A stretch of DNA of 64,000 bases from Sipunculus nudus (Eukaryota > Annelida > Sipuncula > Golfingiida > Sipunculidae). The position numbers and the translations under genes are program-made. The DNA is taken from the NCBI GenBank assembly GCA_026874595.1, contig CM049317.1:41440401-41504400 (forward strand), written 5' to 3'. Below are positions 11,308 through 63,083 of this stretch, piece after piece (the stretch's first letter is position 1; each line of letters starts with the position of its first letter). Under the pieces are notes generated by a model, which ran no database searches, had not been told where the DNA came from, and saw only the letters and a program-made list of their open reading frames with translations.

Positions 11308-11992
11308 CTAGATGTGTCGGAAGGACATGAATGCCCCCGCCTGGGACAAATTAGAAACATTTGTTAAATTTTGTAAAAAATTTTAAGTTCAGGAGGTGTC
11401 GTATGGTCAAAAGTAGGTCAACAAGGGCAAAATGCAAAATCGATCTGTAATGAATCATTATCAAACAACACACCAACAAGGCCTACAGGCCTAGTGCAAA
11501 CCTGTGCATTGGGAAATACACCAGGTATAATGCTTCAATGCTTGACCATTACTTCACATGTATATGAACAGTGCAAGTACTACACATTTTGAGTAAGAAA
11601 CAATTACACAAACATCACTGCTGAAATTCGGGTATGGGTGCACACAACACAAAAATGATTGTAGCTGGCACCACCAGTCTTGTATACAAAGAAGCTATCA
11701 GATCAAGATATGCCCAATTTCAGGCTGATATATCAAATTCCTCTGTAGAAATAAGCAGGCACATACACTGTGCAAAAGTCATTGTAGGTGGCGACACCTG
11801 TCTTGTGAACAAGAAAGCCATCAAAGACACATAGACAGGTCAAAATATCAGGCCAATACATCAAACTTACCTTGAGTCTAATGCATGGGGCTGACCAGGC
11901 TTAGGTGAGAAAGGCAGTTGCCCCGAGTGAACTGTGACAAATTTGCTAGCTGGCTCAGGCTACTGTATTAAGTGAACTCATGACCTGCACCT

Positions 11993-13770
11993 GGCTAGAC
12001 TGAGTGAACTTTGGACCTGTACCTGGCTGCACTGAGTGAACTCTTGACCTGTTGCATAATCTGACACAGTTGGTAGTCCACATGCAGCCCTGAGTGGCAT
12101 GACACCCATGAGGTGATCACAAGGTGGCCACAAGGTGTTCATATGTCACCCATGAGGTGATCACATGCCTTGTGCTTGGCTGCACTGACTGAACTCTTGA
12201 CCTATATCTGACTGCACTGAATGAACTCTTGATCTGTTGCCAAATCTGAAACAGTTGGCAGTTTCTCAACCTATTTAAAGATACAAACACAATCTTGGTC
12301 TGTTGGTAAATCTGTTTACACATACTGAAAGACTTTGGCTAAAATGCTTTTTTTTTCAAGCTGACATATTCATAAACTTTTTATCAAAATAACTAAAATA
12401 ACAAAAGATGCAGTTTTTTCATTGTTTAGGGTCCAATAATTCTGCCAAAAATCATTCAAGTAAACTTGAACAAAGGCCACCTAAGGAAAATAATTGTGCA
12501 ATGTTACAGAAATTATAATTGAAACAATAATTTTGTAGAAGAACAGTTTTGCAGTCCTCAGTTTGAAATAGACATAATAATGGCCATAAGACGCACTTAA
12601 GCTTTTCTGATATGATTGAAAGAACCATGTCTTAGGATAATTCTTTTGAAAAATTGAACAATTCAACTTGACAGTTTCATCATAAACATTTTTAGCTGAA
12701 AGAGGCTAAACTTATGAGGGTTTTGCCCATAAAAAAACAGGTCAATGTAGGTGGCACCACAAAATCTGCAACTTCAAATATGAGTCATGTGACCAACATT
12801 TGCACAATAATTGGTAATGCTAGCTTCTGTCATTTCTGAGATAACTATGTCAGTATGCTTACTTGGCCAAATGACTGTTCAAATACGTTTAACTACACTA
12901 AAAATCATCAAAAGCAAACCATTTGAACAAACATGAGAGGGCTTCTTTCTGGGATCATTTCTGTAAAATATTGAACAATTTGGCTAGTCCATTTACAAGA
13001 AGCAGATATAAAAAAAAAAATGAATCCCACAACATTTGATATGTGTCAGATTATTGCATAAAATCTGGGGATGGTAGCTCCTGCTATTCCTGAGAAATTA
13101 TGGGTTAATATACAGATGACCAATGACCCCCGTACAAAAAAAGGTCAATGAAGTTGGCGCCACCAATACCTGAATTTCATATATGACTCGTGTGACCAAC
13201 ACTGGCATAAAATTTGGTGACGATAGCTCTGGCCCTTCTGAGATTGTCATTTTAGTATGCTTTTTTTGGACAGATGACTAGGTTCAACTTCCTGTAATTC
13301 GGCCAAAATTCACCAAACTTGACCCTTTTGGACAAACTTGAGAGAGATGGTACAAAAGATTATTTCTGTGAAATATTGATCATAATGGATTGACAGTTTC
13401 GGAGAAGAAGATTTTTAAAGTTTTTTTAGCTTTTTCTCTATAAAATCTAAAAAAATGCAGATTTTTTCAGATGGCTTTTTTTGCATTAAATTTCATGATG
13501 CATGCTCCAGTTGTTTTCGAAATAGTATGGGTGAACGTATACCTGTGATTGTAAACATTGCCTGGCATGAGGAATATCTAAAATCATAAATCTACATTTT
13601 TTAAAAGTTTTTTGAAACACATTTTTGTCAATATTAACCATAGATAACCTGAAATCTAAATGTCTGGAGGCATGATGTAAAGGATGCTGATAAACTGGTG
13701 CCAGTCTAGATGTATCTGCTTCACACAGCTAACATATAGCGTAAAATGACTCAATTCAATCTTTATAATT
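11993..13770 (+). repeat. Giant inverted repeat, left arm
   Basis: Read on the minus strand, this arm matches 14625-16839. Landmarks: ggctagactgagtgaac (11993) against its complement ending at 16839; gtgatcacatg (12152) against the 16450 region; tgagtcatgtgaccaac (12780) against ggtcacatgactcat (15808); ctggtgccagtctagatg (13695) against the 14700 region. The arms are diverged and contain indels, so the structure is old. The arm itself contains smaller repeats of a 'ccaaaaatcaccgaacttg'-type unit. Confidence 0.75.
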
Positions 13771-14624
13771 CAGCCAAAATTCATTCTTTGGAACAATAAA
13801 AGACAATTATTATAAGAATCATTCAGGGGATTGTTCTTGTAAAATATTAAACAAATTGGCCTTAGTGGCCTCAGTCAAAAAATGTTTTGCAGGTTTATAA
13901 CTCATATGGGAAAATACAGCAAAATGGCTAAGTTAAGCTTCCCATAACTCAGCCAAAAATCATTGAACCAAAACCATTTGAACAAACTTGAATTATCAAC
14001 ATCTAAGGATAATTAATGTATGAGATTTTAGAATTAGGCCCAGTGGTTTTTGAGAAGATGATCTTTGTAGCCACTGAGCTAAAATGGGCTGTTATGGCAT
14101 ATGACTAAATTCAGCTTCCCATAACTCAGCCAAAAGTTACTGACCTGAGACCATTTGAACAAACTTCAAAAAGCACTACCCTAGGATCATTTCTGTGCGA
14201 TATTAAACAATTTGGCCACATGGTTTCAGAGAAGAAGTTTTTTGTAGCTGTCAGTATGATATGGGCACTGATGACCCTCGTACAAAAAAGGCCGATGCAG
14301 GTGGCACCTACAATACCTGAATTTTAGATATGACTCAATTGACCAACATTGGCATAAAATTTGAAGATGATAGCTCCAGCCGTTTCTAAGATTGTAATTT
14401 TAGTATGCTTTTTTGGACAGATGACTAAGTTCAACTAGCTGTAACTCGGCCAAAAATCACCGAACTTGAACCATTCAAACAAACTTGAGAGAGATTGTTC
14501 CCGGGATCATTTCTGTGAAACATTGGACAATTTGGCTGAACAGTTTCGGAGAAGAAGATTTTTAAAGCTTTTTAGCTTTTTCCCTATAAAATCTAAAAAA
14601 AATGCAGTTAGCCAAAAAATATTG

Positions 14625-16839
14625 GAATTATAAAGGTTCAATTGAGTCATTTTACCATATATGTTAGCTGTGTGAAGCAGATACACAGATACATCTAGAT
14701 ACATCTAGACTGGCACCAGTTTATTACATCATGCCTCTAGACATTTAGATTTCAGGTTATCTATGGTTAATATTGACAAGAAAGTTTTTTTAAAAGCTTT
14801 TAAAAAATGTAGATTTATGATTTTTAGATATTCCTCATGCCAGGCAATGTTTACAATCACAGCTATACAGCTCTCTGTGGGTATATAAAGACGGCTGTAC
14901 ATGGATTATAAATAATTGGTATCCATAGTCAAATTAATTCAAGATTTTGCCATCAGTGAGATGTATCCTTTATTACAATTTTGCATTCAATATGCATCTG
15001 TATTAATTTTTAGTGAAAATTTTTACCTGTGAACTAATGCGATGATGTGGCATCGTTTGTCTTCTGTACATTTACCCATACTATTTTGAAAATGATTGGA
15101 GCTAGCATCATGAAATTTAATGCAAAATTTAGCCATCTGAAAATTTTCTTAAATTTTGTAGAGAAAAAGCTAAAAAACCTTTAAAAATCTTATCCTCCGA
15201 AACACTCAAGCCAAATTGTTCAATATTTCACAGAAATAATCTTTTATACCATTTCCCTCAATTTTGTTTAGGAAGTTGAACTTAGTCATCTGTCCAAAAA
15301 GCATACTAAAATGACAGTCTCAGAAACAGCCAGAGCTATCATCACCAAATTTTTGCCAGCGTTGGTCACATGAGTCATATATGAAATTCAGGTATTGGTG
15401 GCACCACCTGAATTGACCTATTTTTGTATGGGGGTCATTGGTCATATGTACATTAATCAATAATTTCTCAGGAATAGCAGGAGCTACCATTCCCAGATTT
15501 TATGCAATAATCTGTCACACATCAAATTTTGTGGGATTCAGCTTATTTTTTTGCTATCTGCATTTACTTAGATTTTATAAGGAAAAAGCTGACAATATTT
15601 TAAAAGTCATCTTCTTGTAGACAGTCCAGCCAAATTGTTAAATATTTTACATAAATGATCCCAGAGGCAAGCCCTCTCAAGTTTGTTCAAATGGTTTGTA
15701 TTTGATGAATTTTAGTGGAGTTACCAAATTTGAACAGTCATTCGGCCAAGTAAGCATACTGACATAGTACTCTCAGAAATGACAGAAGCTAGCATTACCA
15801 GGTATTGTTGGTCACATGACTCATATTTGAAGTTGTAGATTTAGTGGTGCCACCTACATTGACCTGTTTTTTTTATGGGCAAAAAATCCTCATAATTTTA
15901 GCCTTTTTTCAGCTTAATGATAAAACTGTCAAGTTGAATTGTTTAATTTTTCTAAAGACTTATCCAAGGACATGGTTCTTTCAATCATTTCAGAATATAC
16001 TGAGTTTGTTGATTTTTGGTTGAGTTGTGAAAAGCTTAAGTTGGTCTTATGGCCATTATTATGTCTTTTTCAAACTGAGGACTGAAATAGTATTCTTCTA
16101 CAAAATTATTATTTCAATTATATCTTCTGTAACATTGCACAAAAATTATTCTCAGGTGGCCTTTGTTCAAGTTTACTAGAATGATTTTCGGCAGAACTAT
16201 TGGACCTTTAACAATTAAAGTACAGCATCTTTTATTATTCTAGATATTTTGATAAAAAGTTTATGAATATGTCGGCTTGAAAAAAGAAATTTTAACCAAA
16301 GTCTTTCATTATGTGTAAACAGATATACCAACAGGCCAAGATTGAATCTGTATCTTTAAATAGGTTGAGAAACTGCCAACTGTTTCAGATTTGGGAACAG
16401 ATCAAGAGTTCATTCAGTGCAGCCAGATATAGGTAAAGAGTTCAATCAGTGCAGCCAAGCACATGACCTGTGATCACCTCATGGGTGACATGTGAACACC
16501 TCATGGGCACCATGTGATCACTTCATGGGTGTCAAGCCCCTCAGGGCAGGGCCCCTGCATGAGCTTATGCAATGGTGTGGCTACTATTTCAGATTTGGCA
16601 ACAGGCTAGAGGTCAGTCTGGATCTATATATAGCTTTGGCAGACTGCCAACTGTATCAGATTAGGCAACAGGTCAAGAGTTCACTCAGTGCAGCCAGGTA
16701 TGGGTCAGGAGTTTACTCAGTGCAGTAGCTGCATTCTATTTATAGCTTTGGCAGACTGCCAACTGTGTCAGATTATGCAACAGGTCAAGAGTTCACTCAG
16801 TGCAGCCAGGTACAGGTCAAAAGTTCACTCAGTCTGGCC
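14625..16839 (-). repeat. Giant inverted repeat, right arm
   Basis: Reverse-complement partner of 11993-13770, longer by about 440 bp. It carries an extra segment near 14870-15060 and additional copies of a 'caactgt(a/g)tcagatta' unit at 16560-16800. The arms are separated by about 850 bp of related repeat sequence. A transcript across both arms would form a very long imperfect hairpin. Confidence 0.75.
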
Positions 16840-17035
16840 AAAACCTTTATAATAGCCAAAAAATAAGCAAAATCGGATATAGTTTTTTAGATGACCATTT
16901 TTTTTGCAAAAAATTTCGTGATGCTAACTCTTGCCGTTTTCAAGATAGTATGGGTTAACGTACAGACGACGGACAACGGCCGACGGACGCCGGACGACGC
17001 CACACCATCGCATAAGCTCACAGGTTCGCTAAAAA

Positions 17036-17412
17036 TCAGATATTGCAGGTGGCGCCACCAAAATTGTGCAGCACATACAAACCATCAGTCCATATGATCA
17101 AAGTAAGTTTTGTGAAAATCCACACAATGGTTCCTGAGATATAAGCTTCTGACTGTTTTTCTATAATCAACTCTAAAATGTAGAAAAATTGGTCAAGGTA
17201 ACCCATCTTCGAACTTGACGGAGATTTTATCAATATACATATTCACTGATGAAATAAAATATCAACGGTGAATCCTTTTAGAGATATCCCGCTCACAAGG
17301 TAAAAGTTAACAGACGCGGGACGGACGGACGCCGGACAGACAGACAGACGGACGAACAGACGGACAGCTTGGGTGACAACAATAGCCCATCAGCCTATAA
17401 GCTGAGGGCTAA
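17036..17412 (+). mobile_element. Fragment of a further tandem-core family with its own 3' hairpin
   Basis: Contains an exact GGTGGCGCCACC at 17048-17059 and a GGAC/GACA microsatellite near 17310-17365. It ends in a hairpin (tagcccatcagc, loop ctataa, gctgagggcta) followed by an A run. The layout of palindrome, microsatellite, hairpin and A run is that of families A and C, but the stem sequence differs. The matching 5' end was not found. Confidence 0.5.
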
Positions 17413-17966
17413 AAACGGCTGCATGTACATGTACATTTGTCATGAAAATTTATAATTTTCATGAAATTTTCTATGTTTAGGAGCCGTAAAACAATCAAAA
17501 GGAGGTCAACTGGGACGAAACGGGAACTCGATCTGTAACTGGTCATTAACTGCCCACGTACCAAAAATCAGCCCCGTATCTGCAGGCATTCGAAAAAAAG
17601 TCTGTACATGTGTATTTGTCATGAAAATTTATATTTTTCATGAAATTTTCTAAGTTCAGGAGCCATAAAACGGTCAAAAGTAGGTAAACTGCGAAGAAAT
17701 GCAAACTTGATCTGTAACTGGCCATTATCTGCCCACACACCAAAAATCAGGCCAATATCTGCAGGCATTGCGTAGGTCAACCGGGATGAAACGCGAACTT
17801 GATCTGTAACTAGTCATTATCTGCCAACACTCCAAAAATCAGGCCAATATCTGCAGGCATTGCAAAAAAAAGTCCGTACAACTGTTTGATTTCGGAATGA
17901 CAGAAGGACGGAATGAGGGACATGGATAAAACTATATGCCCCGGCCACTTTGTGGCGGGGGCATAA

Positions 17967-18716: not shown

Positions 18717-18924
18717 AACAAGGCCTACAGGCCTAATGCGAACCTGTGCAATGGGATATACATCAGGTATAATGCTTCCATGCTGGACCGTTACTTTTCA
18801 AGTACATGTGTGACATGTATATGTAAAATTAATTCAATTGCAAGCACTAAACATTTTGAACCTGAGCACATGCACCATTTACACAAACATCACTGCTGAA
18901 TTATGTCATGAATTCACACAACAC
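18717..18924 (+). mobile_element. C-family element, 5' part (interrupted)
   Basis: Starts aacaaggcctacaggcct with the inner repeat GCGAACCTGTG, and is collinear with 11475-11650 up to 'cacacaacac'. There the A-family 5' end begins; in the uninterrupted copy the same point continues with 'aaaaatgattgtag'. The other part may be the C-type sequence at about 40485-41403, which contains 'gtgcacaacacaaaaatt' (inference). Confidence 0.65.
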
Positions 18925-19840
18925 AACAAGGGTCCCATGGATTACAGCACTCAGCTGTTATATATGATCACAAAATATGATTGGAAATATACCTTGGAAG
19001 AGGAGGTAGACAAATGCTGGTTTTTTTTGGTAATATAAGCTGTATTATGAGTTGATGGTGTTTAACTCAAGTTATGTAAGATTTTTTTAATATCCTTGGG
19101 GTGAGGGAAGAGGACTGACGCATTTAAATTATTTACATTTGAAAATGGTGTCACACAGGTTTTGACTTGGCCATATAACTTAATCTACATTGCAGTAGAA
19201 GTATTTGAAAAAAAAAACTGTCCATTATCAGTCATGTTAATTATGCTTTTTACATATAAACATATTTAAAGAGACTATTATTGGTGCCATAGAATTTGCC
19301 ATAAAACTCAGAATTTCGCTTAGTGAGGAAATTGACACAAAATTCAAACAATTAAAGCAGAACACTGACAATAACGAAGAGTAAATAACCCAGTTAACCC
19401 AAAGCCTTCAATCCCACAGAACCAGATAGACGAGTATAAACCAGCCTTTCCTGAGGAATCTGGCAATTTGTGTGTATTCTGAATAATTTCTGGGGTACTC
19501 AAATATACCCCAAAACTCTGAGAATATAGCTCACAGTGATAGAATTTCAGGTTTCTGGGGAAAACTTTTATGGAACTCTCAGGATGTCAAGTTAGAGGAT
19601 TCTGGGTCCAATGGTTAGGATTTGTGCCCTACTTTGGTATCAAATTTTCAATTACTCTGTGGGTGCGTATAAGCCCCATAGCTAAAGAAATATGGGTAAC
19701 AGAGACCTAATTCACGTTTCCAAGGATATTTTACACAGACCTCCCTGGATGTCAAGTTAGAAGATTCTAGGACCAATGGTTACAATTTGTGCCCTGTTAA
19801 TGGACGACCACATCTTTGAAGGTCTCAAAAATAGAGAAAA
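18925..19840 (+). mobile_element. A-family element A1, 5' segment
   Basis: Opens with aacaagggtcccatgg, a variant of the family 5' palindrome gacccatgggtc, followed by a diverged 'gcactcagctg' inner repeat. From about 19440 it consists of A-core sequence (agaattctgggtcca-like phrases, 'atatgggtaacagagacct'). It is interrupted at 'aaaatagagaaaa' by a B element whose CTAG follows directly. A1 continues at 21327-21422 and 30345-34781. Confidence 0.7.
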
Positions 19841-21326
19841 CTAGAATACGGGTAGTCGACAAGCGACTACGTGTATCCGCCTAAATCAGAGTGGAACGGG
19901 TGAAGTGAGGCATGGATTAAGTGGCAAGGGGAAATAGAGTGAAGTGTTGCATATTAGCATGGATGTCTGCAGCCAAATTGTGTATGAAGGTTGCCCCCCC
20001 TACCACAAAATCCAGAAAGCCGTCCCAGTTGTATACATATGCAAAATTTAAGGCAAATTAGTCAGACCACTACATGTATATGAGTGATTTTAGCCCGTGG
20101 CAGACAATCAGATGGACGCTGAGCAAAAATGGTTGCAGGTGACGGCACCAGTTTTGCGTATGATAAAGAGCTATGTGAGAACTATACACATGCAAAACTT
20201 TGGCCTAATCGGTCAAACGGTTCCCAAGATATGAGCTTGGATGTCTGCTGCATAAACTAGAATGCAGGTGGCTCCACCTGTCATAAAATCAAGAGAGCTG
20301 TCGGGGATGTATAAACCTGCAAAATTTTAGCCAGATATGTCAAACCACTGCCGAGATATTAGTGATTTTATCCCATGGCAGACAAACAGACAGGAGCTGT
20401 GCAAAAATGGCTGCAGGTGGCGCCACCAGTTTGCGTATGTTATAAAGCTCTCCAAGGGCTACATTTGTGCAAAAAAATTTTCCTGATCGGTCAAACGGTT
20501 TTCGAGATATGAGCTTGGATGTCTGCAGCGTAAACGTGAATGTAGGTGGCGCCACCTGTCATAAAATCTGAAAAGCTATCCAGGATAAATACGCATGCCA
20601 AATTTCAGGTGAATTAGTCAAGTCACTGCAGAGATATGAGTGATTTTAACCCAAGGCAGACAAACAGATGGACACTGTGCAAACATGGTTGCAGGTAGTG
20701 CCACCATTTTTTGTGTATGTTATAAAGCTCTCCAAGGGCTACATTTGTGCAAAAAAAAAATTCCTGATCGGTCAAACGGTTCCCGAGATAATAGCTTGGA
20801 TGTCCGCAGCGTAAACGTGAATGTAGGTGGCGCCACCTGTCACAAAATCAGAAAAGCTATCCAGGATGTATATGCATGTCTCATTTCAGGTGAATTATTC
20901 AAGTCACTGCAGAGATATGAGTGATTTTAACCCAAGGCAGACGAACAGATGGACACTGTGCAAACATGGTTGCAGGTGGCGCCACTATTTTTTGTGTATG
21001 TTATAAAGCTCTCCAAGGGTTACATTTGTGCAAAAAAATTTTCCTGATCGGTCAAACGGTTCCCGAGATATGAGCTTGGATGTATGCAGCGTAAACGTGA
21101 ATGTAGGTGGCGCCACCTGTCACAAAATCAGAAAAGCTATCCAGGATGTATACGCATGCCAAATTTCAGGTCAATTAGTCAAGTCACTGCAGAGATATGA
21201 GTGATTTCAACCCAAGGCAGACGAACAGATGGACACTGTGCAAACATGGTTGCAGGTGGCGCCACCATTTTTTGTGTATGTTATAAAGCTCTCCAAGGGC
21301 TACATTTGTGCAAAAAAATTGTCCTG
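19841..21326 (+). mobile_element. B-family element B2, 3'-truncated
   Basis: The 5' end ctagaatacgggtagtcgac carries a hairpin (GTAGTCG, loop ACAAG, CGACTAC) and the inner repeat TGTATCCGCC. The core follows with a period near 280 bp: exact GGTGGCGCCACC at 20545, 20826 and 21106, and at the second position in the unit at 20416 and 21255 (degenerate at 20696 and 20977). The conserved 3' tail and hairpin are missing. The sequence passes within 'tcctgattctagg' into A core, suggesting a deletion between the two elements. Confidence 0.75.
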
Positions 21327-21422
21327 ATTCTAGGTCCAGTTATTTTGATTTGTGCCCTGTTAACAAATCCAAATGTTTACTCTGGGGGGTATTTCAAAGC
21401 TGCATAGGATGAAGGATATGGG
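21327..21422 (+). mobile_element. A1 core piece before Gypsy-2
   Basis: Contains A-core phrases (ttctaggtccagttatttt, ctggggggtattt, gaaggatatggg). It ends at the Gypsy-2 insertion site; the interrupted unit resumes at 30341-30345 with tgggtaacagagatg. Confidence 0.75.
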
Positions 21423-28813: not shown

Positions 28814-30344
28814 TGTGACAGGACAACGGGTTTGGTCTGTTGTCATGTCATTAATTTGTTTGCATTAGCCGTAGTTGTAGTCACTGGCGGCAAACGATGT
28901 CAGACTTAGCACCATGAGGTAGCGACGCAAGTGGCAAATAATGGTACTAGAGCCCTTGGTCCAATCACGTGACCCGCACAAGTTTCGAATATGGCGGAGT
29001 GGACAGGTTAGCTCTTTTAGCCGAGGTTTATGAGGTCCGATTAACGCTTGTTAAGGATTTGTCAGCTCCAGCCAAGCTAAGTATCCGTTGGATAGATGTA
29101 CTATGATATGAGATGACCAAGGTTTGTGCTCTGATTCTTTTGTTTTCATGTGTAAATACCGTCGTAAACAGGTTGATCTTTCAAGATTTAATCCGAAATG
29201 CTGATGTCAGAATTGCTGTGGAATTTTCCAGTAAATGCGCAATATAATTGAATATACTGTATCGCAGCAAATAGTTTTAACATTTGTCCTTCTGTTCGTC
29301 AGCGAAAGAAAACTTTATTTCTGTCATTATGTTGACATATAGCGTTTCATACATTTGATACACTGTGGACTGCTCCTACTTTGTGTTACGCCATAACCTT
29401 AAAATTGAGCTGTACTTATGCTTGAAGTGAAGCGCTACATTCATTAGCTGACGAGGTATTTAGCTACTGCTTACTCCAGTTTATGTATAAACTAACATGA
29501 TAAATGCCATTTGTCATTCGTTGATGTTTCTGTAAGACGTTTGTATTTCTGTATTAATGTCTTGAGGCCCATTTATGACTTAGTAGACTTTATGGCTCAT
29601 TAGTTTTATATTGTTAGAATATAATTTCTTATTTGTGTTGCCACAGTAGACTCAAGTGTCCATATCAGTCTGGATGAGATGATCAGCATTGGTGGTGAAC
29701 ACAGTGGTTGAGCCAAGAGAGGGCACATGTAGGTAGCATTACTAGTAACTGAGATCTTATATGTAACAGGTTCAAGATTACTTAACAGGGTGAATACTAA
29801 GTTTAATTTTGTAAGATTTTCTAATTGTTTTTATATTACATAGGTCCAGATGCAGCTATAGATGCTAGTATGCTGTGGAGTTCATTCCATTTAGATGCAA
29901 CATTTAAATTGTTGTAGGAGTAATTTGATGTATAAACCGGAATATTTTGTGTGCGGTTAGAACATTAATATGGTTTTTTGAACAGATGTTTATTCAATGT
30001 TTATAACATTTGTTTATGTGAGAGAAGTGACAATATATGTGCATCGTTTGTCACAATGATCATCTTTATGAGATATCTGATATCTGTAATGTCTGAGTAT
30101 AAGTGTACAAGTCTTAATCAGAGCAAGGTTTTCTCCATATCTCTTGATAATTGTCATTGCATAATTATATATATGTGTTAAGTTTGCCGAGCTGGTAACT
30201 TATGTTTTGTATTTTTTTTTATGTATTTATACAGGTACCAGCCACCCTTTCTTACACCCTTTTTTGTTGTTATGTAAAAGGGAAATTAAACGTTTTCCCA
30301 GGCAGAATCCGTCTTTGTGTGTTTGTTGACCCAGCCCGGTCACA
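28814..30344 (+). repeat. Gypsy-2 3' LTR
   Basis: Same boundaries as the 5' LTR, TGTGAC to GTCACA, 1,531 bp. Differences include a 3-bp indel near 30074 (agatatctgat against agattgat). Confidence 0.92.
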
Positions 30345-31169
30345 TGGGTAACAGAGATGTAATTTCAGGTGCACAAGGAGACTTTTCAGGGGCCTCCCAG
30401 CATATCAAGAAAGGAGATTCTAGGTCAAGTCATTATAATTTGTGCTCTGTTAACAGATGACCAAATCTTTATTCTGGGGAGTACTTCGGAGCCCCAGAGC
30501 ATGAAGGATATGGGTAACAGGGACCTTATTTCGGGTTTCCATGTAGACCTTTTATGGGCTTCCCTGGAGGTGAGGACAGAATATTCTAGGTCCAGTCATT
30601 ATGATTTGTGCCCTGTTAATATATGACCAAATCTTTATTCTGGGGGGTACTTCAGAGCCCCATAGCTCACAGAATATGGTTAACAGGGACCTTATTTCGG
30701 GTTTCCATGTAGACCTTTTATGGGCTTCCCTGGAGGTGAGGACAGAAGATTCTAGGTCCAGTCATTATGATTTGTGCCCTGTTTACAGATGACCAAATGT
30801 TTAAAGATCACAAAAGTAGAGAAAAAAAATCGTAAAAAATAAAAAAAATATAGGTGGCGCCACCAATCTCCAGAAATTGATGAAACACTCCATGATCAAT
30901 ATCCATGCAAAGAATCATGGTGATTAATGCATTAGTTGTTCAGATACTTGAGCTTTATTAAATTTTGCATTATTCTGGGGGGTACTTCAGAACCCCATAG
31001 CTCGAAGAATATAGGTCACAGTGACCTTATTTCAGGTTTACAATGAGAATTTCCATAGACCTCCCAGGATTTCAAGTAAGAAGATTCCCTGTCTAGCGGT
31101 TACGATTTGTGCCCTGTTAACAGACAGACGCCTGGATGGCTGGACGGACGACGGACAAAAGGTGATCCC

Positions 31170-31206
31170 TACAGCTCAGATGACTTTCAGTCAGCTGAGC
31201 TAAAAA
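31170..31206 (+). repeat. A-family 3' hairpin, internal copy 1
   Basis: agctcagatgact, loop ttc, agtcagctgagct, then aaaaa. The sequence continues straight into a core unit instead of flanking DNA. Confidence 0.75.
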
Positions 31207-33642: not shown

Positions 33643-33680
33643 ATAGCTCAGATGACTTTCAGTCAGCTGAGCTAAAAAAC
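33643..33680 (+). repeat. A-family 3' hairpin, internal copy 2
   Basis: tagctcagatgact, loop ttc, agtcagctgagcta, A run; preceded by a GGAC-type tract from 33594. Confidence 0.75.
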
Positions 33681-34781: not shown

Positions 34782-34783
34782 GA

Positions 34784-36801: not shown

Positions 36802-36846
36802 CACATAGATATTTACTTTGCTCACTGTATGCATACATCAGCAATC

Positions 36847-40484: not shown

Positions 40485-41403
40485 AGCGCTGGAGTCAAGA
40501 GCGCTGGAGAAAGCCATCAAAGATGTATGGACATGAAAAATTTCAGGCAGATACTTCAAACCACTGTTAGGCTATGTGCATAGATGCATGAAACAACTAG
40601 AAAACCAGTAGTCCACAAGCGACAATGTGTCTCCCCTGGATGTGCACAACACAAAAATTATTGTAGTTGGCACCACCAGCCTTGTGTATGAGAAATTAAG
40701 CCATCGAAGATGTATGGACATGAAAAATTTCTGACAGATACTTAAGTCAAACTACTCTTCAGCTATGTGCACAGATGCATTAAAACCCAAAAACAATTGT
40801 AGGTGGCACCACAAGTTTTGTATACAACAAAACTATCCAAGATGTATGGACATACACACTTTCAGGCTGATATGTCAAATAACTACTGAGAAGTAAGCAG
40901 GGACATACGCTGTGCAAAAATCAATGAGGTGGCACACCAGACATGTATACAACAAACATATCCGAGATGAATAGAGAAAGCCATCAAATATTCATGGACT
41001 GGCCAAAATTTCAACTTCTCTTGAGTCAGGTGCACTGGGCCTGACCAAGCTCAGCTGAGGAAGGCAGTCGCCCACCAAGTGAACTGAAACAAATGTACTG
41101 GAACCATTTGAACAAACTTGAGATTGTTTCTTGGATTATTTCTGTGAAATATTGAACAATTTGCTGGACAGTTATACAGGAGAAGATTTTAAAGTTTTTT
41201 TTAGCTTTTTCAAATTAAATCTAAGTGAATGCAGGTAGCCAAAAAATAAGCTCAATCTGATTGAGTTTTTTACGTGACTAATTTTTTGCATAAAATTTGG
41301 TGATGCAAGCTCTGGCTGTTTTTGAGAAAGTATGGGTTAACAGACAGATGATGGCCAATGGACCATGCCGTACCATTGTGTAAGTTCACAGGTTCGCTAA
41401 AAA
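40485..41403 (+). mobile_element. C-family element, 3' part
   Basis: Repeats 'gccatcaaagatgtatggac' and 'ggcaccaccag' phrases found at 11640-11850. It has the C tail from about 41100 (ttgaacaatttgctggacag, ggtgatgcaagctctggc). It ends CACAGGTTCGC at 41387-41397 plus taaaaa. A B-like 5' end, ctagaaaaccagtagtccac, lies inside at 40597. Possibly the partner of 18717-18924. Confidence 0.65.
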
Positions 41404-44072: not shown

Positions 44073-45949
44073 AACAAGCGACCCATGGTTCACGGCGCTC
44101 AGCTGAAGTTTGAAATTTTTGCAAGTGCAAAATATTCTATTGTAATGTTTTTTATTTATATAAGAATATGAGAAGCTAAGAGGAAAGGGGCCCTCCTACT
44201 TGGTTATAGTAAAGTTCTAAATATATGATTGCAAACTAATACTTTGACAAGACTGTCATGAAGAAAAACAGTAAAAGTTTTGAGATACTGTGATGCATAT
44301 GAAAATTTACAGATGGACAGGCAAGTGGACAAAATGGACTAATACCTTTATTTCACTTTCATGGGAATATTGAATTTAAGTTTATATATAAGCCTATTTT
44401 TTTTAGCATATCCACTTTTTCCATTACAAGTTGCAATCATTATATATCAAGAGTAAAAAACTGAAATATAAGTTAAAATATTAGAATTGTTGCAATTATT
44501 ATATATCAAGGGTGTAGCTCATATTGGGTCATATTATGCATACACATATATTTTATTATTATTAAATCACAAATGTTTAAACAGAATTTAAAAGAAAATA
44601 ATGCCACAACTTGGCATTTACAAGATTATTCCTTGAATCACTATTAAAAAGTTTTGCACATTGGAGTTTTCAGTACATGCTTAATTTTATTCACTGAAAT
44701 AAAATAAAAGATTCAGTAAATTTGATAAAATAAAACATCTTTTGAAATAAAGTATACACACTGTTGGTTCAATGAGGGACAAACAATATCATTGTGCTAA
44801 TTACTATCTCAGCTTTAATTTATTACTGGAATTAATAGTCAATTTCACACGTGGCGAAGTTTTTACTCTTCTGAAGTAAGGAATTACTTATCTGATGAAC
44901 ATCCACACTTTCATAGCAATACACCACTTTTTGGACACAATTAAATGTGCACTTTAATCATTGTAACCCTGGTGGTACGATACAAAATTTAAAATGTAGC
45001 ATAGCCTAGAATAAGAATGAATCAAATACAGAAAATAATAACATATTAACAATAATCATCTTGTTTATGCACCACCTGGTGGGGGGGGGGGGAGTGCAGG
45101 GCAGAGGGGAAGCCTGCTGGTAGTGGCCATGCAAGCTGAGCCAAGGCAAGCTGCCTGGGGTGGGTTACATAATGCAAGTGAAGGCTGTACTACTAGGTGG
45201 GCTAGATGTAAATAACACTTGACATGGTGTATGAAAACTTGAATAAAAGCTACCCTTTTCAATCAATTCCTTTGAAATTTCAGGTTTTAAAAGATTAAAT
45301 CCTTATGTATATATGCTGTGAAAATTAAATCAACAGTGCTTACAGGGAAAAAATGTGCCATTGCCAAAGTTGGACAAAATTTAAGGTATTGATTTCTTAA
45401 TTATATTAATAACTTGAAAAATTTGCAAAATTCAGATCTAATTTTGGGTAAACAAATGAATCTTGATAAAATAAAGTTATATTCCTGAAAAAAAGTCTCT
45501 ACCTTCAGGAATTCTCATGTTAGGTGAGTAAATATATTTCCTGACTTTTTAAAAATTGCATTATATTTTGGCCCATAACTTCAAAATAATAGCCAACACT
45601 GACCTAATTTTTGTATGTTCATAGAAAATTTATGAAAGAATGTGAATACTAAATTTGATCAAAAACAGATCTGTGGTTTTGATATTAGGCAGCCTTGAAG
45701 TGTAACCATGGCTTTTTCATGGAAAACTGAGGTTTTTCCTTAATATCTCGAAGGAACAAAGTCCTAATGACCCAATTTTTGGTATGGTAGGAGATTTTTG
45801 GGACATCTAATGATATGCAAAATTTTGGAAACGTAGGTCTTACTGTTTCAAAAAGTGCCCTGTTAACGGCCGGATGGCCGGACGGACGGACGACGGACAA
45901 AGGACCACGACTATAGCTCAGATGACTTATAGTCAGCTGAGCTAAAAAT
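44073..45949 (+). mobile_element. A-family element A2, complete ends
   Basis: The 5' end is aacaagcgacccatggttca with inner repeat GCTCAGCTGA (44097-44106). The 3' end has a GGAC tract (45860-45895), hairpin 45912-45943 with TCAGCTGAGC (45933-45942), and an A run. The interior differs from A1: it has no GGTGGCGCCACC array, only one G12 tract (45081-45092) and one copy of the 'cccataacttcaaaataat ... gacctaatttttg' core. About 1.9 kb, non-coding. Confidence 0.78.
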
Positions 45950-46862: not shown

Positions 46863-49218
46863 AAACAAGGGACCCATGCGTCACATCACTCAGCTGAATT
46901 TTGGAAAATATTAGCAAATACAAAATATTCTTATTTCTTTTGGTTTATGTATATTAGCATTTCAAAAGCAATGAAAATGGAGCTGCTAAAATTAAACTCT
47001 ATAGCTTATAGAATAATGGACATAAGCTAAAATATATGCACTGTGTAATAAACTTGTGGCCTGAAACCATTTTATGATGCACCAAGGGAAAAATGGCCAA
47101 CGGTAAGTGTTACATGAAAGTTGCATTTCATAAACAAAGAATGTGTGAAGAAATTAAGTTTTCAATAGTAAAATATATGGCCATATGATTTAAAAATTAT
47201 TCCCACAAAATTTGACCAATATTTCTGATTTTAAAACTAAGTTTAATAGTATTATTCACACCTAGGCCCAGCCAACTTTAAGAGAGACAAATGCTACAAA
47301 GTATTTATATCTTCTTAAATCTAGTCACTTAGCACTTACATTAGATCATAATATTTTATCACATTTGAATGTTAGAATTCAATTCCTGAACATTTTTATC
47401 TTTAAAAAAAATTAAAATTGTCCAAATCTCAACAAAAAGAATTAATTTAACATTAAAATTATGAGATTCATCTTGTTTATGAGTCCTGTGTTTTGAATGG
47501 GTCGGTGGGGGAGGAGTCTCTGTTGTTACTGCTGGTTGTTGAAAAATGGGAAATTATTCATCTTGTTTATAGTACAGGCCTGTCAACAGAATTGCGTGTG
47601 GTTTGGGGTGGGGGGGGAGAGAGAGAGAGAGAGAGAGAGAGACTCCCTGTGGTATTAACTGCAGACAGTCTGAATTAGCTCAACAAAGAGAGAGGGCTTG
47701 CAGGAGTGATGGGATTACATAACAACACCCTGGGCACAGAGAGCTATACTGAATGACCTACAGTGACCCCTAAGGGGGGCTGCTTGACAATGTAAGGAAA
47801 TACAACAAGAGCCTCCACAAAAAATCAATAACTAGCCTAATTGTTTTAGCTTTTATTTTAAAATTTAAGATTTTAACAGATTAAATCCTTGTGTGTACAT
47901 GCTGTGAATATAAAATCCACAGTACATACTGGAAAAAAACGTGCAGTGGCCAATTGCAAAGTTGGGCAAAATTAAGGTACTGATTTTATATTTATGCTAA
48001 TAACTTGAAAAAATTGCAAAATTCAGATCTAATTTTCTGTGTACAATTGAATCTTGATTAAATGAAGTTATATCCCTGAAAAAAAGTCTCTAGCTTCAAG
48101 AATTATTATGTTGAGTGAGTAAATATATTTCCTTATTTTTTTTTTTCAAGTTGCATTATGTTTGGGCCCATAAGTTCAACAAATTACGCAATACTGACCT
48201 AATTTTTGGAATGTACATAGGAAATGTATGGAAGAATATGCATATTTACTATGATCAAATTCAGATCATAGGTTTTGATATCAGGCATTCCTGAAGTGTA
48301 AAAATGATTTTAATAAAAAAAATTGAGGTTTTCCTTAATTTCTCAAAGAAAAAAAAGTCACAGAGACCCAGTTTTTGGCTTGGAAGGAGATCTTAGGGAC
48401 ATCTAACATTTTGCCAATTTTTGGATTACCAGGCAAAGTTGTAGTAAACAAAAGTGGGGTCATGATGCTAGAAAATACAAATACATCTAGGCCTCTAAAA
48501 AACTCCAATAGCTAGACTATTTTTTAAGCTTATACTATCAAATTTCAAAATTCATCAGATTAAATCCATATGTAAACTGGCTGTGAAAATTAAATCAACT
48601 GTACTTACAAGAAAAAAACGTGCCATGGTCAAAGTTGGGCAAAATTTAAGGTACCAATTTTTTATTTTTGCCAATATTTTAAAAAATTAAAAAGATTTTG
48701 ATCTAATTTTGGGTACAGAATTTAATTTTGATTAATTAAAGTTATATTACTGGAAAAAAAGTCCTTAGCTTTAACATATTTTGTGTTAAGTGATCAAATA
48801 TCTATCCTGATTTTTTACAAAATGCATTATGTTTGAGCCTTTAACTTTTTTTAATTATAAATACAGACCTAATTTCTGGCATGTACATAGGAACTATATA
48901 GAGGAATATTAATTGTAAATATGAGGAAAAACAGATGAGTGGTTTTGATATTAGGCAGTCCTGAAGTGTGAAAATAGGTTTTTAATAAAAAATTGAGGTT
49001 TTTCCTTAATTTCTCAAAGGAATGAAGTCGCAAAGACCCAGTTTTCGGCTTGATAGTAGATCTTGGGGACATCTAACATTATGCCGAATTTTGAATTCCT
49101 AGGTCTTACGGTTTCAAAACGTGCCATATCTACAGATGGACGGACGGACAGACGGATGGACGACGGACAATGGACCACAACTATAGCTCAGATGACTTAT
49201 AGTCAGCTGAGCTAAAAA
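46863..49218 (+). mobile_element. A-family element A3, complete ends, nested in F repeat
   Basis: The 5' end is aaacaagggacccatgcgtc followed by 'cactcagctgaa'. The 3' end has a GGAC tract (49138-49160), hairpin 49182-49213 with TCAGCTGAGC, and aaaaa. The interior holds a GA microsatellite (47618-47642) and two to three diverged core copies (phrases 'cctgaaaaaaagtctct' and 'gttttgatatcaggcattcc'; compare 48060-48300 with 48740-48970). Both flanks are F-repeat sequence. Confidence 0.78.
47618..47642. repeat. GA microsatellite in A3
   Basis: (GA)n directly after a G8 run. Confidence 0.9.
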
Positions 49219-50091: not shown

Positions 50092-51391
50092 AACAAGTGA
50101 CCCATGGGTCATGAAGCTCAGCCAACTGACATGTTGACAATATGTCCTTGCACAGGCAACTAATTAAGATAATGTAGGTGGCATCATCGTTCATGCATAT
50201 CAGCTTAAGTCCACCAAGACCCATAAGCACACCAAATTTGATGCAATCCAATCAGCCTTTACTGAAGAATCTGGCAATTTGTATGTATTTTGCATTATTT
50301 CTGGGGTGCTCAAACATACCCTAAAACTCTGAGAATATATGTCACAGTGACCCAATTTCAGGTTTCTGAGGAGAACTTTTGAGGAACTCTCAGGATGTAC
50401 AGTTAGAAGATTCTGGGTCCAATGGTTATGATTTGTTCCCTACTTTGGTATCTAATTTTCAATTATTCTGGGGGGGGGGGGGGTGCTTATAAGCCCCATA
50501 GCTCAGAGAATATGGGTAACAGAGACCTAATTTCTAGTTTCCAAGGAAATTTTTCATGGACCTCCCTGGATGTCAAGTTAGAAGATTCAAGGACCAACAG
50601 TTATGATTTGCATCTTTAAAGGTGTCAAAAATAGAGAAAAAATGTGTTAAAATTTGAAAAAAAAATCCAGATGGCACCACCAGTCTGCAAGAACTGACGA
50701 AACACTAAATATGCATGCAAAGAATCATGGTGATCATTGCATTGGTTGTTCAGATACTGGACCTTTTGTATCAAACTTTTAATTATTCTGAGGGTTCTGA
50801 GCCCTATAGCTCAGAGAATATGTTTAACTGAGACCTCATTTCAGGAGTCTCAAGAGAACTTTTGAGGAACTTTCAGGATGTCAAGTTAGAAGATTCTAGG
50901 TCCAATGATTATGATTTGTGCCTTGCTTTGGTATCAAATGTTCAATGATTCGGGGAGGTATTTATTAGCCCCATAGCTTGAAGAAAATGGAAAACAGAGA
51001 CCTTATTTCAAATTTCCAAGGAGATTTCTCATAGACCTCTCTTGATGTCAAGTCAGAAGATTCTGGGTTTAGTGGTTATGATTTGTGCCTTGTTAATGGA
51101 TGACTGCATCTTTAAAGGTCTCAAAAATAGAGAAAATCATTGCTTAAAATTCTTTAAAAAATTCAGGTGGCGCCACCAGTCTGCAGGACCTGATGAAACA
51201 CTCCATGATGAATATGCATACAAAGAATCATGGTGATCAATACATTAGTTTCTCAAATACTGGAGCTTTTGTATCAAATTATTAATTATTCTGGGGGGTA
51301 CTTCTGAGCCCCATAGCTCAGAGAATATGGGTAACAGAGACCTAATTAAAGGTTTCCAGGGAGATTATTCATGGAACTCCCTGAATGTCAA
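50092..51391 (+). mobile_element. A-family element A4, 3'-truncated
   Basis: The 5' end is aacaagtgacccatgggtca (full palindrome gacccatgggtc) followed by 'gctcagcca'. Three or so A-core units follow, with a G14 run at 50470-50483 and an exact palindrome at 51166-51177. It stops at 'gaatgtcaag', where the LINE poly-T begins; no 3' hairpin. Confidence 0.72.
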
Positions 51392-58999: not shown

Positions 59000-61240
59000 A
59001 ACAAGGGACCTATGGGTCACGACGCTCAGCTGATCATGATTGAACTATAAATGTATCACCATTGTGATACTATATTTAGTCGACAAACCTTATGAATATC
59101 ATGGACCTATTTGGCTATATAGTGGTTTATTTTTTATTTATTTGGGAGCTGTTGAAAATAGCAATATATTTGAGCAAATATGAATGCAATGACAGTACAC
59201 TAAGCAGTGGTAGAATGATGATAAGGCTATTTGTTGAAGGATCTATATTGTATAGAAGTCCGCAAGATTTCAATTTGACATATATAATGTTATTATTAAC
59301 TATGCTGAAGAGTGGATTTATGAATTGTGACTGTATGACATGATATCTCTTAGGTCTTGACAAGGTACATTATATTGATGCCCACCACATCTACATATTA
59401 CACAATATTGACATAATTTCTGGCACGCACATAGGCAACAAACAGTTATACAATATATAAAAATATGAAAATCTGATTCAACTTGTTCTCGTTTACTGAG
59501 GCTGACATTGGGATGGGGTTCGGAGAAGGAAACAGTGTGGGCAGCAAGGAGGGTTGGATGTAGAGAGAAAAGGAGATAGAGAGAGAGGGAGGGAGCATTC
59601 AACAGTACTTAAACACCTGGAAGGTTAAAATCTAAAATATTATGAAATGTAGATAAAGTCTGAGAGAAAGAGGTAATCTAGGCTATGGTTGGTTGATATG
59701 ATTGAAGAAATTGTTGCAAATAATATTTTAAGATCTGACCTTGCGCTTTCATTGGATACCTTTTTGACAGGCTGTTGACAGTTCAACTTTTTACATATTT
59801 GTCTAATGAGATCCAATTTTTTAAATTTAAACTTTAATTAAACTGTTTTTTCTATTTTATGATATGTATACAGTTGCTATAAAATCCCCACTCCACAGGC
59901 GGAAGGACTTGATGGAGGGGGGGGGGTTACGATGGGAGTTACAACGCCTCTGTCTCTCTGTATATATTTTCTTCAAATTATTAAATTTTATGCTATAGCA
60001 ATAGCACTATTGTTGACAGTGCGAAGGAGCAAGGACTTAGTGGGGTGGGGGAAGGGGATGGTGGGAGTTACAATACCCTTGCATATACGTACAGGATATG
60101 AAATTTAATTAATCAGAGCTTACAGGAAAAAAAAGTTTATTCATAATTATTAAATATTTAAAACAGGCAAGAAAGCTAGAGAAACAAAGCAAATAATTTT
60201 AATTCCCATTCTTCTGAGCCAGGAAATTATGAACAATTTTTACATAAATTCCCTTTTTTATAACATCATTTTTTTCCAGGTTTGAAAATGTAACTTTACA
60301 TTTAGAGTATAACAAATATATGTGAATATTTCAGTTGATTCACATTTCTTAATTGCATCAACATATATATCTAATAAATTAGGTTTATAGCACCTGTCAA
60401 CATAATGGGGTGGAGGGAGGAAGGAAGGCATAGGGGTGAGAGAGAGAGAAAGAGAGAGAGAGAAAGAGAGCTAGAAAGAGAGAAAGGGAAAGAGAGAGGA
60501 GAAAGGCTCTCTGGTAATTACTGCCTGACCCAGCCTGACCCAGACACTCACAGAATCTCTGTATATATTTTCTTCAAATTATTCAATTTTATGCTATAGC
60601 AATAACACTATTGTTGACAGTGCGAAGGAGCAAGGACTTAGAGGGGTGGGGGAAGGGGATGATGGGAGTTACAATACCCTTGCATATACGTACAGGATAT
60701 GAAATTTAATTAATCAGAGCTTACAGGAAAAAAAAGTTTATTCATAATTATTAAATATTTAAAACAGGCAAGAAAGCTAGAGAAACAAAGCAAATAATTT
60801 TAATTCCCATTCTTCTGAGCCAGGAAATTATGAACAATTTTTACATAAATTCCCTTTTTTATAACATCATTTTTTTCCAGGTTTGAAAATGTAACTATAC
60901 ATTTAGAGTATAACATATATGTGAATATTTCAGTTGATTCACATTTCTTAATTGCATCAACATATATATCTAATAAATTAGGTTTATAGTACCTGTCAAC
61001 ATAATGGGGTGGAGGGAGGAAGGGAGGCATAGGGGTGAGAGAGAGAGAAAGAGAGAGAGAGAAAGAGAGCTAGAAAGAGAGAAAGGGAAAGAGAGAGGAG
61101 AAAGGCTCTCTGGTAATTACTGCCTGACCCAGCCTGACCCAGAATCTCACAGAAGCAGTAGGCAAGGAGTGAAGGTGTTATGTAACAGCCTGGAACACTG
61201 TTAACCAATGACTTGATGTAAACATTCAAGACATGGTGCT
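59000..61240 (+). mobile_element. A-family element A5, without 3' hairpin
   Basis: The 5' end is aacaagggacctatgggtca with exact inner repeat GCTCAGCTGA. The interior carries G-rich and GA-rich patches and a 601-bp tandem duplication. No TCAGCTGAGC end is found before the next A-type 5' end at about 61241. Confidence 0.68.
59955..61156. repeat. 601-bp tandem duplication
   Basis: 59955-60555 and 60556-61156 are near-identical, both starting tctctgtatatattttcttc and containing the same GA-rich block (60436-60498, 61036-61098). Differences are few and clustered in the first 120 bp, so the duplication is recent. Confidence 0.88.
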
Positions 61241-61299
61241 ATAAATATGGGTCACTGTGCTCAGCTGAAGTTGGCCTTGAAGGTAAAAATCTAAAATAA
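61241..61299 (+). mobile_element. A-family element A6, 5' piece
   Basis: atatgggtcactgt plus the inner repeat GCTCAGCTGA (61259-61268); it runs to 'aaaatctaaaata', where B4 begins. A6 resumes at 63084. Confidence 0.65.
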
Positions 61300-62979
61300 C
61301 TAGAATACGGGTAGTCGACAAGCGACTACGTGTATCCGCCAAAATCAGAGAAGGACGGGTGAAGTGAGGCATTGATTGAGTGGCAAGGGGATATAGAGTT
61401 ACATGTGTTAAATATTAGAATGGATCTCTGCCACATAAACATGATTGTAGGTGGCGCCACCTGTTATTTGAATGAGAAACTATCCAAGATATATACACAT
61501 GCAAAATTTCATGTGGAAAAGTCAAACCACTGCAGAGATATGAGTAATTTTATCCCACAGCAGACAAACAGATGGACGCTGTGCAAAAATGGCTGCAGGT
61601 GGCGCCACCATTTTTGTTCATGTTATAAAGCTATCCAAGGGCTACATTTGTGTAAAGTTTTTTTCCTGATTGGTCAAACGGTTTCCGAGATATGAGCTTG
61701 GATGTCTGCAGCATAAACGTGAATGTAGGTGGCGCCACCTGTCATAAAATCAAGAAAGCTATCTAGGATGTATACACATGCCGAATTTTAGGTGAATTAG
61801 TCAAACCACTGCAGAGATATGAGTGATTTTAACCCCAGGCAGATTAACAAATGGACACTGTGCAAACATGGTTGCAGGTGGCGCCACCTTTTGTTGTGTA
61901 TGTTATAAAGCTATCCCAGGGCTACATTTGTGTAAAAAATTTTTCCGGATCGGTCAAACGGTTCCTGAGATATATGGATTTATGTGTGGAGTGTTAACGT
62001 GAATGTAGGTGGCGCCACCTGTCATAAAATCAAGAAAGCTATCTAGGATGTATACACATGCCGAATTTTAGGTGAATTAGTCAAACCACTGCAGAGATAT
62101 GAGTGATTTTAACCCCAGGCAGATGAACAAATGGACATTGTGCAAACATGGTAGCAGGTGGCGCCACCTTTTGTTGTGTATGTAATAAAGCTATCCCAGG
62201 GCTACATTTGTGTAAAAAATTTTTCCGGATCAGTCAAACGGTTCCCGAGATATATGGGATTATGTGTGGAGCGTTAACGTGAATGTAGGTGGCGCCACCT
62301 GTCACAAAATCGAGAAAGCTATCTAGGATGTATATGCATGCCAAATTTTAGGTGAATTAGTCAAACCACTGCAGAGATATGAGTGATTTTAACCCCAGGC
62401 AGATGAACAGATGGACACTGTGCAAACATGGTTGCAGGTGGCGCCACCTTTTGTTGTGTATGTTATAAAGCTATCCCAGGGCTACATTTGTGTAAAATTT
62501 TTTTCCGGATCGGTCAAACGGTTCCTGAGATATATGGGATTATGTGTGGAGCGTTAACGTGAATGTAGGTGGCGCCACCTGTCACAAAATCGAGAAAGCT
62601 ATCTAGGATGTATATACATGCCGAATTTTAGGTGAATTAGTCAAATCACTGCAGAGATATGAGTGATTTTAACCCCAGGCAGATGAACAGATGGACACTG
62701 TGCAAACATTGTTGCAGGTGGCGCCACCTTTTGTTGTGTATGTTATAAAGCTTTCCCAGGGCTACATTTGTGTAAAAATTTTTTCCGGATCGGTCAAACG
62801 GTTCCCGAGATATATGGGTTTATGTGTGGAAACAGATGCACAAACGGACGCTGGGCAGAGACGAAAGGTCAGAGGTCAAGGTCACTTGGTTAGGCACCAG
62901 TTCACATGTGACCCGATAATTTGTGTAAGTTTCGGAAAAATCTGTCCAGTAGTCTCAGAGGAGTTCTCCGGAAACGAAC

Positions 62980-63034
<55 letters not shown>

Positions 63035-63083
63035 AACCCGGTCAAAAACATAGTATCCGCAAAACTTCGTTTTGGCGGATACA
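61300..63083 (+). mobile_element. B-family element B4, complete, 1.78 kb
   Basis: The 5' end ctagaatacgggtagtcgac has hairpin GTAGTCG-acaag-CGACTAC and inner repeat TGTATCCGCCAAAA at 61331-61344. The 3' end is the exact reverse complement TTTTGGCGGATACA at 63070-63083, within a hairpin. The core is tandem with an exact 280-bp period: palindromes at 61728, 62008, 62288, 62568 and, in the second position, 61877, 62157, 62437, 62717 (plus 61450 and 61598). A (GCG)18 tract precedes the 3' hairpin. The insertion point is confirmed by an uninterrupted A copy at about 59630. No protein-coding frame. Confidence 0.85.
62980..63034. repeat. (GCG)18 trinucleotide tract
   Basis: 55 bp of uninterrupted GCG/CGG. 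At the same place other B copies have short impure CGG/CAG mixtures. The Arg-, Gly- or Pro-rich open frames across it are artefacts. Confidence 0.95.

Follow-up and report, generated by a model that had tools for sequence, protein, structure and literature searches.

The 64,000-nucleotide stretch of contig CM049317.1 of the sipunculan Sipunculus nudus analyzed here (C12:41440401-41504400; hereafter, the window) contains four nested repeat families, A to D. With a probability of about 0.9, we identify these as four families of Helentron-associated interspersed elements (HINEs), that is, non-autonomous rolling-circle transposons of the Helentron group. An earlier note on this DNA had proposed a Helentron-derived origin, and this proposal is supported by family-specific matched ends, by insertion boundaries that fall at these ends, and by Rep/helicase elements with the same end. 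HINEs are an already known kind of element; the remaining results are new as far as the literature was searched. By their plan, families A-D appear to be HINEs, and their sequences seem novel when judged against published descriptions, which come without sequences.

Ends, boundaries and abundance of the four families

According to PMC4067079, the subterminal inverted repeats (subTIRs) of a HINE family share an identical stretch of at least 11 bp. The subTIRs of families B, C and D span 14, 11 and 11 bp, respectively, and those of family A, with 10-12 bp, are borderline. Two further HINE features, a palindrome that follows the 3' subTIR close to the 3' end and insertion in TT or T-rich DNA without target duplication, are present in all four families. 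An inverted repeat complementary to the subTIR and located beside the 5' subTIR is found in A, B and D, with one defect in each case, and is missing in C; the mite HINEs also lack this repeat, so that it is not required of every HINE (PMC4067079).

All eight inner terminal sequences given in the earlier note were found in the window where it had placed them: for D, at 11331/17954; for C, at 18738 and at 17019 and 41387; for B, at 61331 and at 39049 and 63070; and for A, at 44097, 59024 and 61259 and at 31191, 31710, 33663, 34043, 45933 and 49203. Two further exact A words, at 41049 and 10193, are not accompanied by the remainder of the end and look like chance matches. The assignment of the 5' and 3' ends in that note has to be reversed: its 3' hairpin followed by an A run is the left end, and its 5' palindrome is the right end. 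When the Helentron convention is applied, every accepted A-D end module is found on the window's minus strand, and six plus-strand matches to the A left end, with 7-8 mismatches each, are A hairpins read backwards.

The left end of A consists of TTTTTA-GCTCAGCTGA, followed by a near-complement and a GTCC-type microsatellite; that of B is TGTATCCGCCAAAA, followed by GTTTTGCGGATAC and CCG repeats; that of C is TTTTTA-GCGAACCTGTG; and that of D is TTTTT-ATGCCCCCGCC, followed by GGCCGGGGCAT. At the right end, A has TCAGCTGAGC, a palindrome around CCATGG and ...TTGTT; B has TTTTGGCGGATACA, GTAGTCG..CGACTAC and ...CTAGTT; C has CACAGGTTCGC, AGGCCT..AGGCCT and ...TTGTT; and D has GGCGGGGGCAT, TGTCG..CGACA and ...CTAGTT. 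The A pair represents two overlapping parts of a single palindrome, GCTCAGCTGAGC, so that the complementarity of the A ends, taken alone, is less informative. The constant layout of the ends that had been claimed holds for the left hairpin of A, B and D and fails for C, which has no real left hairpin (-0.9 kcal/mol).

Searches of the whole 1.43-Gb genome with exact patterns, with the reversed pattern as a control, show that copies of these families number in the thousands, far beyond chance. The A left end is represented by 22,956 matches (0 in the control), or one per 62 kb, and the strict A right module by 4,449 (0 in the control); the C left end has 5,571 matches (4 in the control) and the D left hairpin 2,691 (0 in the control). 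The B arm, a pattern that counts both ends of an element, has 13,081 matches, compared to 13 in the control. A search of the retrieved DNA for further families by hairpin shape yielded 5 matches, all of the A, B or chance type.

A stack parse that joined only ends of the same family, and hence is no test of end matching, yielded 36 elements, two of which are doubtful (a C element over 22.8 kb and an A element over 12.3 kb, both in the window). The joined flanks of these elements were compared with all retrieved DNA, and paralogous empty sites were identified for 12 of the 36 (5 D, 3 B, 2 C and 2 A elements; 75.8-97.5% identity); for the other 24, no empty site was found in the retrieved DNA. 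The ends thus coincide with insertion boundaries in all four families, and each of the 12 empty sites consists of T-rich DNA with no target duplication. Examples include L027, L032, L035 and the window B element located in the right part of an A element, for which the empty site has about 5 more bases.

The matching of the ends was assessed in copies chosen by one end only, with about 2.4 kb beyond it retrieved: 18 of the 100 listed C matches (17 usable), 19 of the 100 listed D matches, 14 of 74 A matches and 5 of the 100 listed B matches. The B copies were sampled without knowing which end had been hit, those of C and D were partly picked for a changed subTIR, and the 14 A copies belong to a minor form (the pattern with a loop one base longer, 74 matches). 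The opposite end of the same family was found in 32 of the 55 copies (D 15/19, C 7/17, A 5/14, B 5/5); in the remaining 23, the retrieved stretch was too short or the end was broken or absent, and in L015 and L028 the palindrome runs off the end of the retrieved piece. An adjacent-pair test, in which a left module is followed by a right module on the same strand with nothing between them and mixed ends are allowed, gave 34 same-family pairs out of 40 (15 D, 8 B, 7 A and 4 C). Together, these counts bear out the claim that the matched ends are family-specific.

Other classes of rolling-circle elements do not fit. Canonical Helitrons start with 5'-TC, end with CTRR-3' and insert between A and T; this class does not agree with the left end (TTTTTA/subTIR), the right end (...TTGTT or ...CTAGTT) and the T-run insertion sites of families A-D. 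Helitron2 shares asymmetric inverted repeats and palindromes at both ends but is a Rep/helicase element without an endonuclease (PMC4067079); it does not match, as both partner-type proteins scanned here have Exo_endo_phos-type matches.

The two-end design itself has been published for DINE-1/HINE elements (PMC2374699, PMC4067079, PMC7492417). Among the closest descriptions is that of Cg_HINE from the oyster Crassostrea gigas (PMC7492417), which shares with families A-D the 5' subTIR, the adjacent complementary inverted repeat and the microsatellite (GTCY, GTCC or GTCK in several), the central tandem repeats, the 3' subTIR with a palindrome, T-rich insertion without target duplication, and the coexistence of several unrelated families in one genome; this comparison is by description, not letter by letter. 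DINE-1 and its Helentron partners share the two-end plan and TT insertion (PMC2374699, PMC4067079), an inverted repeat next to the 5' subTIR that is partial or interrupted (PMC2374699), a 3' stem that differs by compensated changes (PMC2374699, PMC4067079), and a Rep/helicase/endonuclease partner with common ends (PMC4067079, PMC2374699). The sequences of DINE-1 are different.

Helentron loci that carry HINE ends

The Pfam Rep domain PF14214 has at least 143 matches in the genome (150 of 195 candidates were scored), seven of these within open frames of 2,229-2,426 amino acids. Two of the encoded proteins were scanned, and both combine Helitron_like_N, PIF1 and a C-terminal endonuclease (Exo_endo_phos); the first also contains an OTU domain. 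The combination of Rep, PIF1 and endonuclease is the domain make-up of Helentrons.

We inspected 23 loci, namely, five 15-kb loci, two near-identical pairs, and 1.3-kb pieces behind 16 hand-picked Rep matches. The A right end is present at nine of the 23 and the D right end at one. On the coding strand, the A right module lies behind the endonuclease at distances that recur within subtypes: 991, 991 and 992 bp in L076, L077 and H5; about 500-560 bp in L078, L079, L088 and L091, a subtype with the G..C form of the A palindrome (see below); and 207 bp in L085 and in L070. L085 has one more A right module farther along, and L071 is a segmental duplicate of L070. The D right module of L086 is located 331 bp behind the endonuclease, and the last 58 bp at this place match the D HINEs, with a sharp edge where the match stops. 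When the 16 pieces were shuffled twenty times by mononucleotide and searched on the plus strand, no modules appeared; this control is lenient in HINE-rich surroundings, and what carries the argument is the recurrence of the distances within a subtype. At H5, an A left end is also found upstream, in the same sense and with no A right end in between (to 1 mismatch), so that A ends flank a 14.9-kb locus (C17:35625477-35640366) that contains a frame of 2,342 amino acids and also a nested B element.

Thus, for family A and for one D candidate, coding Helentron loci of the same genome carry the right end of the HINEs, and protein-coding elements with such a shared end probably move at least one of the four families. 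As for the autonomous Rep/helicase element with the same ends that the earlier note had called for, candidates that share the right end were found for A (nine loci) and D (one locus), and none was seen for B or C among the 23 loci. In the oyster study, none of 10 autonomous Helentrons could be related to the HINEs described there (PMC7492417); unlike Cg_HINE, family A, and one D candidate, are linked to Helentrons by the right end. This finding bears on an open point of that study, by identifying, in one genome, coding Helentrons that share an end with abundant HINEs.

H1-type Helentrons were rejected as partners: no A-D ends were found about 1-6 kb behind the coding part at eight such loci (H1-H3, L068/L069 counted once, L080, L083, L084 and L087). 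L068 and L069 (contigs C3 and C5) are H1-type remnants that contain stop codons and lack A-D ends; over 7.5 kb, they are 99.2% identical.

The shortness of the elements, the lack of coding capacity and the inverted repeats near their ends would also be expected of miniature inverted-repeat transposable elements (MITEs) of a cut-and-paste transposon or, for that matter, of repeats nested by chance. We consider this explanation highly improbable: the 12 empty sites, at which no target duplication was seen, speak against MITEs of a DDE transposon, and neither the placement of one subTIR inside the end, behind a palindrome, nor the tandem repeats and microsatellite in the element interiors, nor the presence of the same right end at Rep/helicase loci agrees with it.

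Several observations weigh against the assignment to the HINEs. Transposition itself was not observed. Ten of the 23 loci (the eight H1-type loci and two of the other type, H4 and L090) lack the A-D ends in the inspected stretch, and at three more (L081, L082 and L089) the sequence ended too early to tell; no autonomous partner was seen among the 23 loci for B or C, and for D there is one locus only. The A left end of H5 likewise comes from one locus and could belong to an independent A copy; since A left ends occur once per 62 kb, the bracketing of H5 taken alone could be due to luck with a chance of several percent. In L070 and L071, no A left end was found in the roughly 6 kb that precede the coding part. 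Finally, six of the 40 adjacent pairs join different families: C then B in L013, L016 and L018, C then A in L020, and A then B in L048 and in one window pair, which spans 11.4 kb across an LTR (long terminal repeat) insertion. In L013 and L018, the B end is internal because the copy's own C end follows; L016, L020, L048 and the window pair (4/40) are undecided. The swapped ends proposed in the earlier note are thus not shown, although they may exist.

In a side observation, C copies that carry a B right end (L013, L016, L018 and L028; in three of these, 165-205 bp before the C right end) also carry B-type repeats. L016 and L028 look related, and hence a C-B composite may have been amplified as a single unit.

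The left hairpin and the pairing of the ends

A copy begins at a T run with the subTIR and finishes with the complementary subTIR and a short palindrome. In a plausible scheme, the Rep protein (HUH nuclease) of a Helentron would nick the left end, the helicase would peel the strand off, and the palindrome would halt the transfer; HINEs with a matching subTIR would be moved in trans. In A, B and D, what Rep might read at the left end is an imperfect single-strand hairpin in which a single C, about 5 bp away from the loop, is unpaired, and the perfect complement at the right end could serve as a second copy of the recognition sequence or as an alternative pairing partner.

Folded with DNA energies, the left hairpins of A, B and D share the same shape, in which 6-8 bp of stem are followed by one unpaired C, another 5 bp and a loop of 3 bases. 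The unpaired C takes the form of a C.T mismatch in A, a C.C mismatch in D and, in B, a bulge that can lie 5 or 6 bp away from the loop, and in each case the right subTIR perfectly pairs the C that is left unpaired in the hairpin. Among the 100 listed A matches, the defect is C.T in 98, C.C in one, C.A in one and paired in none; genome-wide, T occupies this position in 22,956 of 23,275 matches, although the two patterns compared are not exactly nested. In D, the two positions hold 86 C, 10 T, 2 A and 2 G versus 93 C and 7 T (counted by eye), and 98 of the 100 listed matches are unpaired. Among the retrieved copies, the defect is present in 9/9 D copies with an exact left arm and in 7/7 B copies that had been selected because they have the repeat; of the 20 A copies in this check, about half were out of register. 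The regularity covers three families only and was noticed after the fact. The imperfection of the hairpin is already known in that the left repeat of DINE-1 has been called partial or interrupted (PMC2374699); a constant place of a single defect is not mentioned in the DINE-1 descriptions, and no statement on the place of the hairpin defect in Helentrons was found in the literature search, supplementary tables being outside the material covered in both cases.

The earlier note had concluded that pairing between the ends is what is conserved. If the subTIRs were maintained by base-pairing of the ends within the transposition complex, with the hairpin and the end duplex as alternative folds, the perfect left:right complementarity seen at the level of the family in 4/4 families would follow, and the energies would agree: the end duplexes reach -12.9, -17.2, -14.6 and -17.0 kcal/mol for A-D, compared to -8.3, -10.9, -0.9 and -12.1 kcal/mol for the left hairpins, although energies of these two kinds cannot be compared strictly. 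At the level of individual copies, this explanation fares worse. Where the left subTIR is changed and the right one can be read (13 copies), the change is matched at the opposite end in only one (L035; C 0/4, D 1/8, A 0/1), in a test that is itself weak given that most changes may postdate insertion. The family-level match stands, and the individual copies lend no support to conserved pairing, which makes this explanation rather unlikely.

The uncompensated variants fit a shared protein-binding site equally well. Indeed, if the subTIRs were simply two inverted protein-binding sites, with hairpin and end pairing irrelevant, the same family-level match would be obtained without any pairing, and the lack of a left hairpin in C would come as no surprise. 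What speaks against such sites is the recurrence of the adjacent inverted repeat together with its single defect (A 100/100 and D 98/100 listed matches, along with the retrieved D and B copies above) and the two compensated forms of the A right palindrome. Among 100 listed A right ends, 86 have A..T, 14 have G..C and none is mixed (counted by eye); the two forms probably represent two lineages rather than 14 events. We therefore regard binding sites without a role for the hairpin as a rather unlikely explanation, too. Under the reading of the ends outlined above, transposase recognition is narrowed to a small hairpin with one defect plus a second, perfect copy, which is testable with oligonucleotides.

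Strand orientation and the elements of the window

As noted above, the accepted A-D end modules of the window occupy one strand. Orientation was further examined on contig C1, using the first 100 listed places each of A-left, C-left, D-left and A-right. Pairs from different families agree in strand in 33/36 cases at distances below 5 kb, 133/136 at 5-20 kb and 170/196 at 20-50 kb; such pairs are not independent of each other. The long-range coherence comes mostly from a single stretch, given that contig C1 is uniform up to 1.15 Mb: all 83 listed ends in C1:96421-1149425 point the same way (50 A-left, 16 C, 8 D and 9 A-right, which are not independent of the A-left ends). When the first 1.2 Mb are left out, agreement is 70/76 below 20 kb and 67/93 at 20-50 kb, then 75/133, 167/265 and 450/777 in successive bins up to 500 kb, and 584/1,256 at 0.5-1 Mb. 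In runs tests, with places within 5 kb merged, there were fewer runs than expected for A-left (12 vs 22.8), C-left (26 vs 43.9) and A-right (33 vs 49.3), and no significant deficit for D-left (41 vs 48.9). When strand labels were rotated, the agreement observed at 20-200 kb was reached in 0 of 1,000 rotations for three family pairs.

Insertion into other HINEs explains part of this coherence: 26 of 50 sampled left flanks are HINE-like, with 23 in the same sense, 2 in the opposite sense and one mixed. The supply of T tracts was rejected as a cause, T12 runs agreeing with the element strand in 7/16 cases within 50 kb, 14/25 within 100 kb and 16/31 within 200 kb. It is also a poor explanation because the excess of T5+ over A5+ runs in sampled element bodies (724 to 549; C 165:191, D 374:201, A 185:157) is small relative to the 23 same-sense and 2 opposite-sense flanks. 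In the search for a control transposon, two LTR words from the window gave 9 and 13 matches, too few for comparison. An exception to the coherence is found in L079, where an opposite-sense A right module (at about 953) lies close behind the Helentron's own A right end.

By analogy, Helentrons might be large eukaryotic counterparts of IS200/IS605. Rep would read the single-strand left hairpin via one unpaired base at a fixed place, and insertion would target the T tracts on one of the template strands at the fork, so that the orientation of the copies records the direction of replication; although we consider this unlikely, it would explain both the shared hairpin defect and the same-way orientation of unrelated families. 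In the bacterial systems, the orientation of IS200/IS605 follows the direction of replication (PMC5371812), TnpA-REP of E. coli needs the bulge of its REP (repetitive extragenic palindrome), and in IS608 and ISDra2 contact is made with a base that is unpaired or mismatched (PMC8266576). The possible likeness lies in an HUH nuclease that reads a single-strand hairpin with an unpaired base (PMC8266576). Families A-D are not members of the IS200/IS605 or REP/TnpA-REP systems, which differ in the size and domains of the enzyme; A-D are eukaryotic, target T tracts and have an end palindrome. No report of replication-linked orientation in Helitrons was found among the listings searched. If the coherence holds against controls, tens of thousands of HINEs would constitute a record of strand polarity along the chromosomes.

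Within the window, where all elements and modules described here are on the minus strand, the nesting proposed earlier is real: a C element lies within D, and B elements lie within C and within A. The D element (11306..17964) has its left subTIR, with the hairpin, at 17954-17964, its right subTIR at 11331-11341, and the palindrome and terminus at 11306-11330. It encloses a C element (11475..17029, left subTIR 17019-17029), which contains a large fold-back with arms between 11992 and 16840, the arm pieces being 72-97% complementary. The right end of another C element follows at 18717..18748 (subTIR 18738-18748, palindrome AGGCCTGTAGGCCT). A second C element (35525..41397, left subTIR 41387-41397) encloses a B element (35697..39062, left subTIR 39049-39062), which has 6 mismatches in its right module and is broken up by intervening DNA, part of which is a Gypsy-type LTR (about 37175-38863). 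Another B element with both ends (61298..63083; empty site in L060 and L051) is inserted in an A element, adjoining its right subTIR (61259-61268), and the right part of a further B element, with 278-bp tandem repeats, occupies 19839..21328 (right terminus 19839).

Two A elements have both ends, one at 44073..45942 (left 45933-45942, right 44073-44106) and the other at 46864..49212, with 6 mismatches in the right module and a paralogous empty site of 75.8% identity; additional A right-end modules are located at 50092..50125 and 59000..59033. An A-type tandem array at 30344..34788, with units mostly of 335-380 bp, includes A left ends at 31191, 31710, 33663, 34043 and about 34763. Here, as well as in L092 (1288 and 2012, reverse complement), A left ends are tandemly repeated together with the first array unit and look like head-to-tail copying of left parts without the right end. 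Near 21.4-30.3 kb, a repeat array is split by an LTR retrotransposon. Gypsy-type LTR retrotransposons or parts thereof occupy 3792-9047, 21419-30344, 37175-38863 and 54558-58535; one of these has 159-bp LTRs that are 98.7% identical and an open frame of 1,376 amino acids, and another has LTRs of about 1.5 kb and a further LTR copy.

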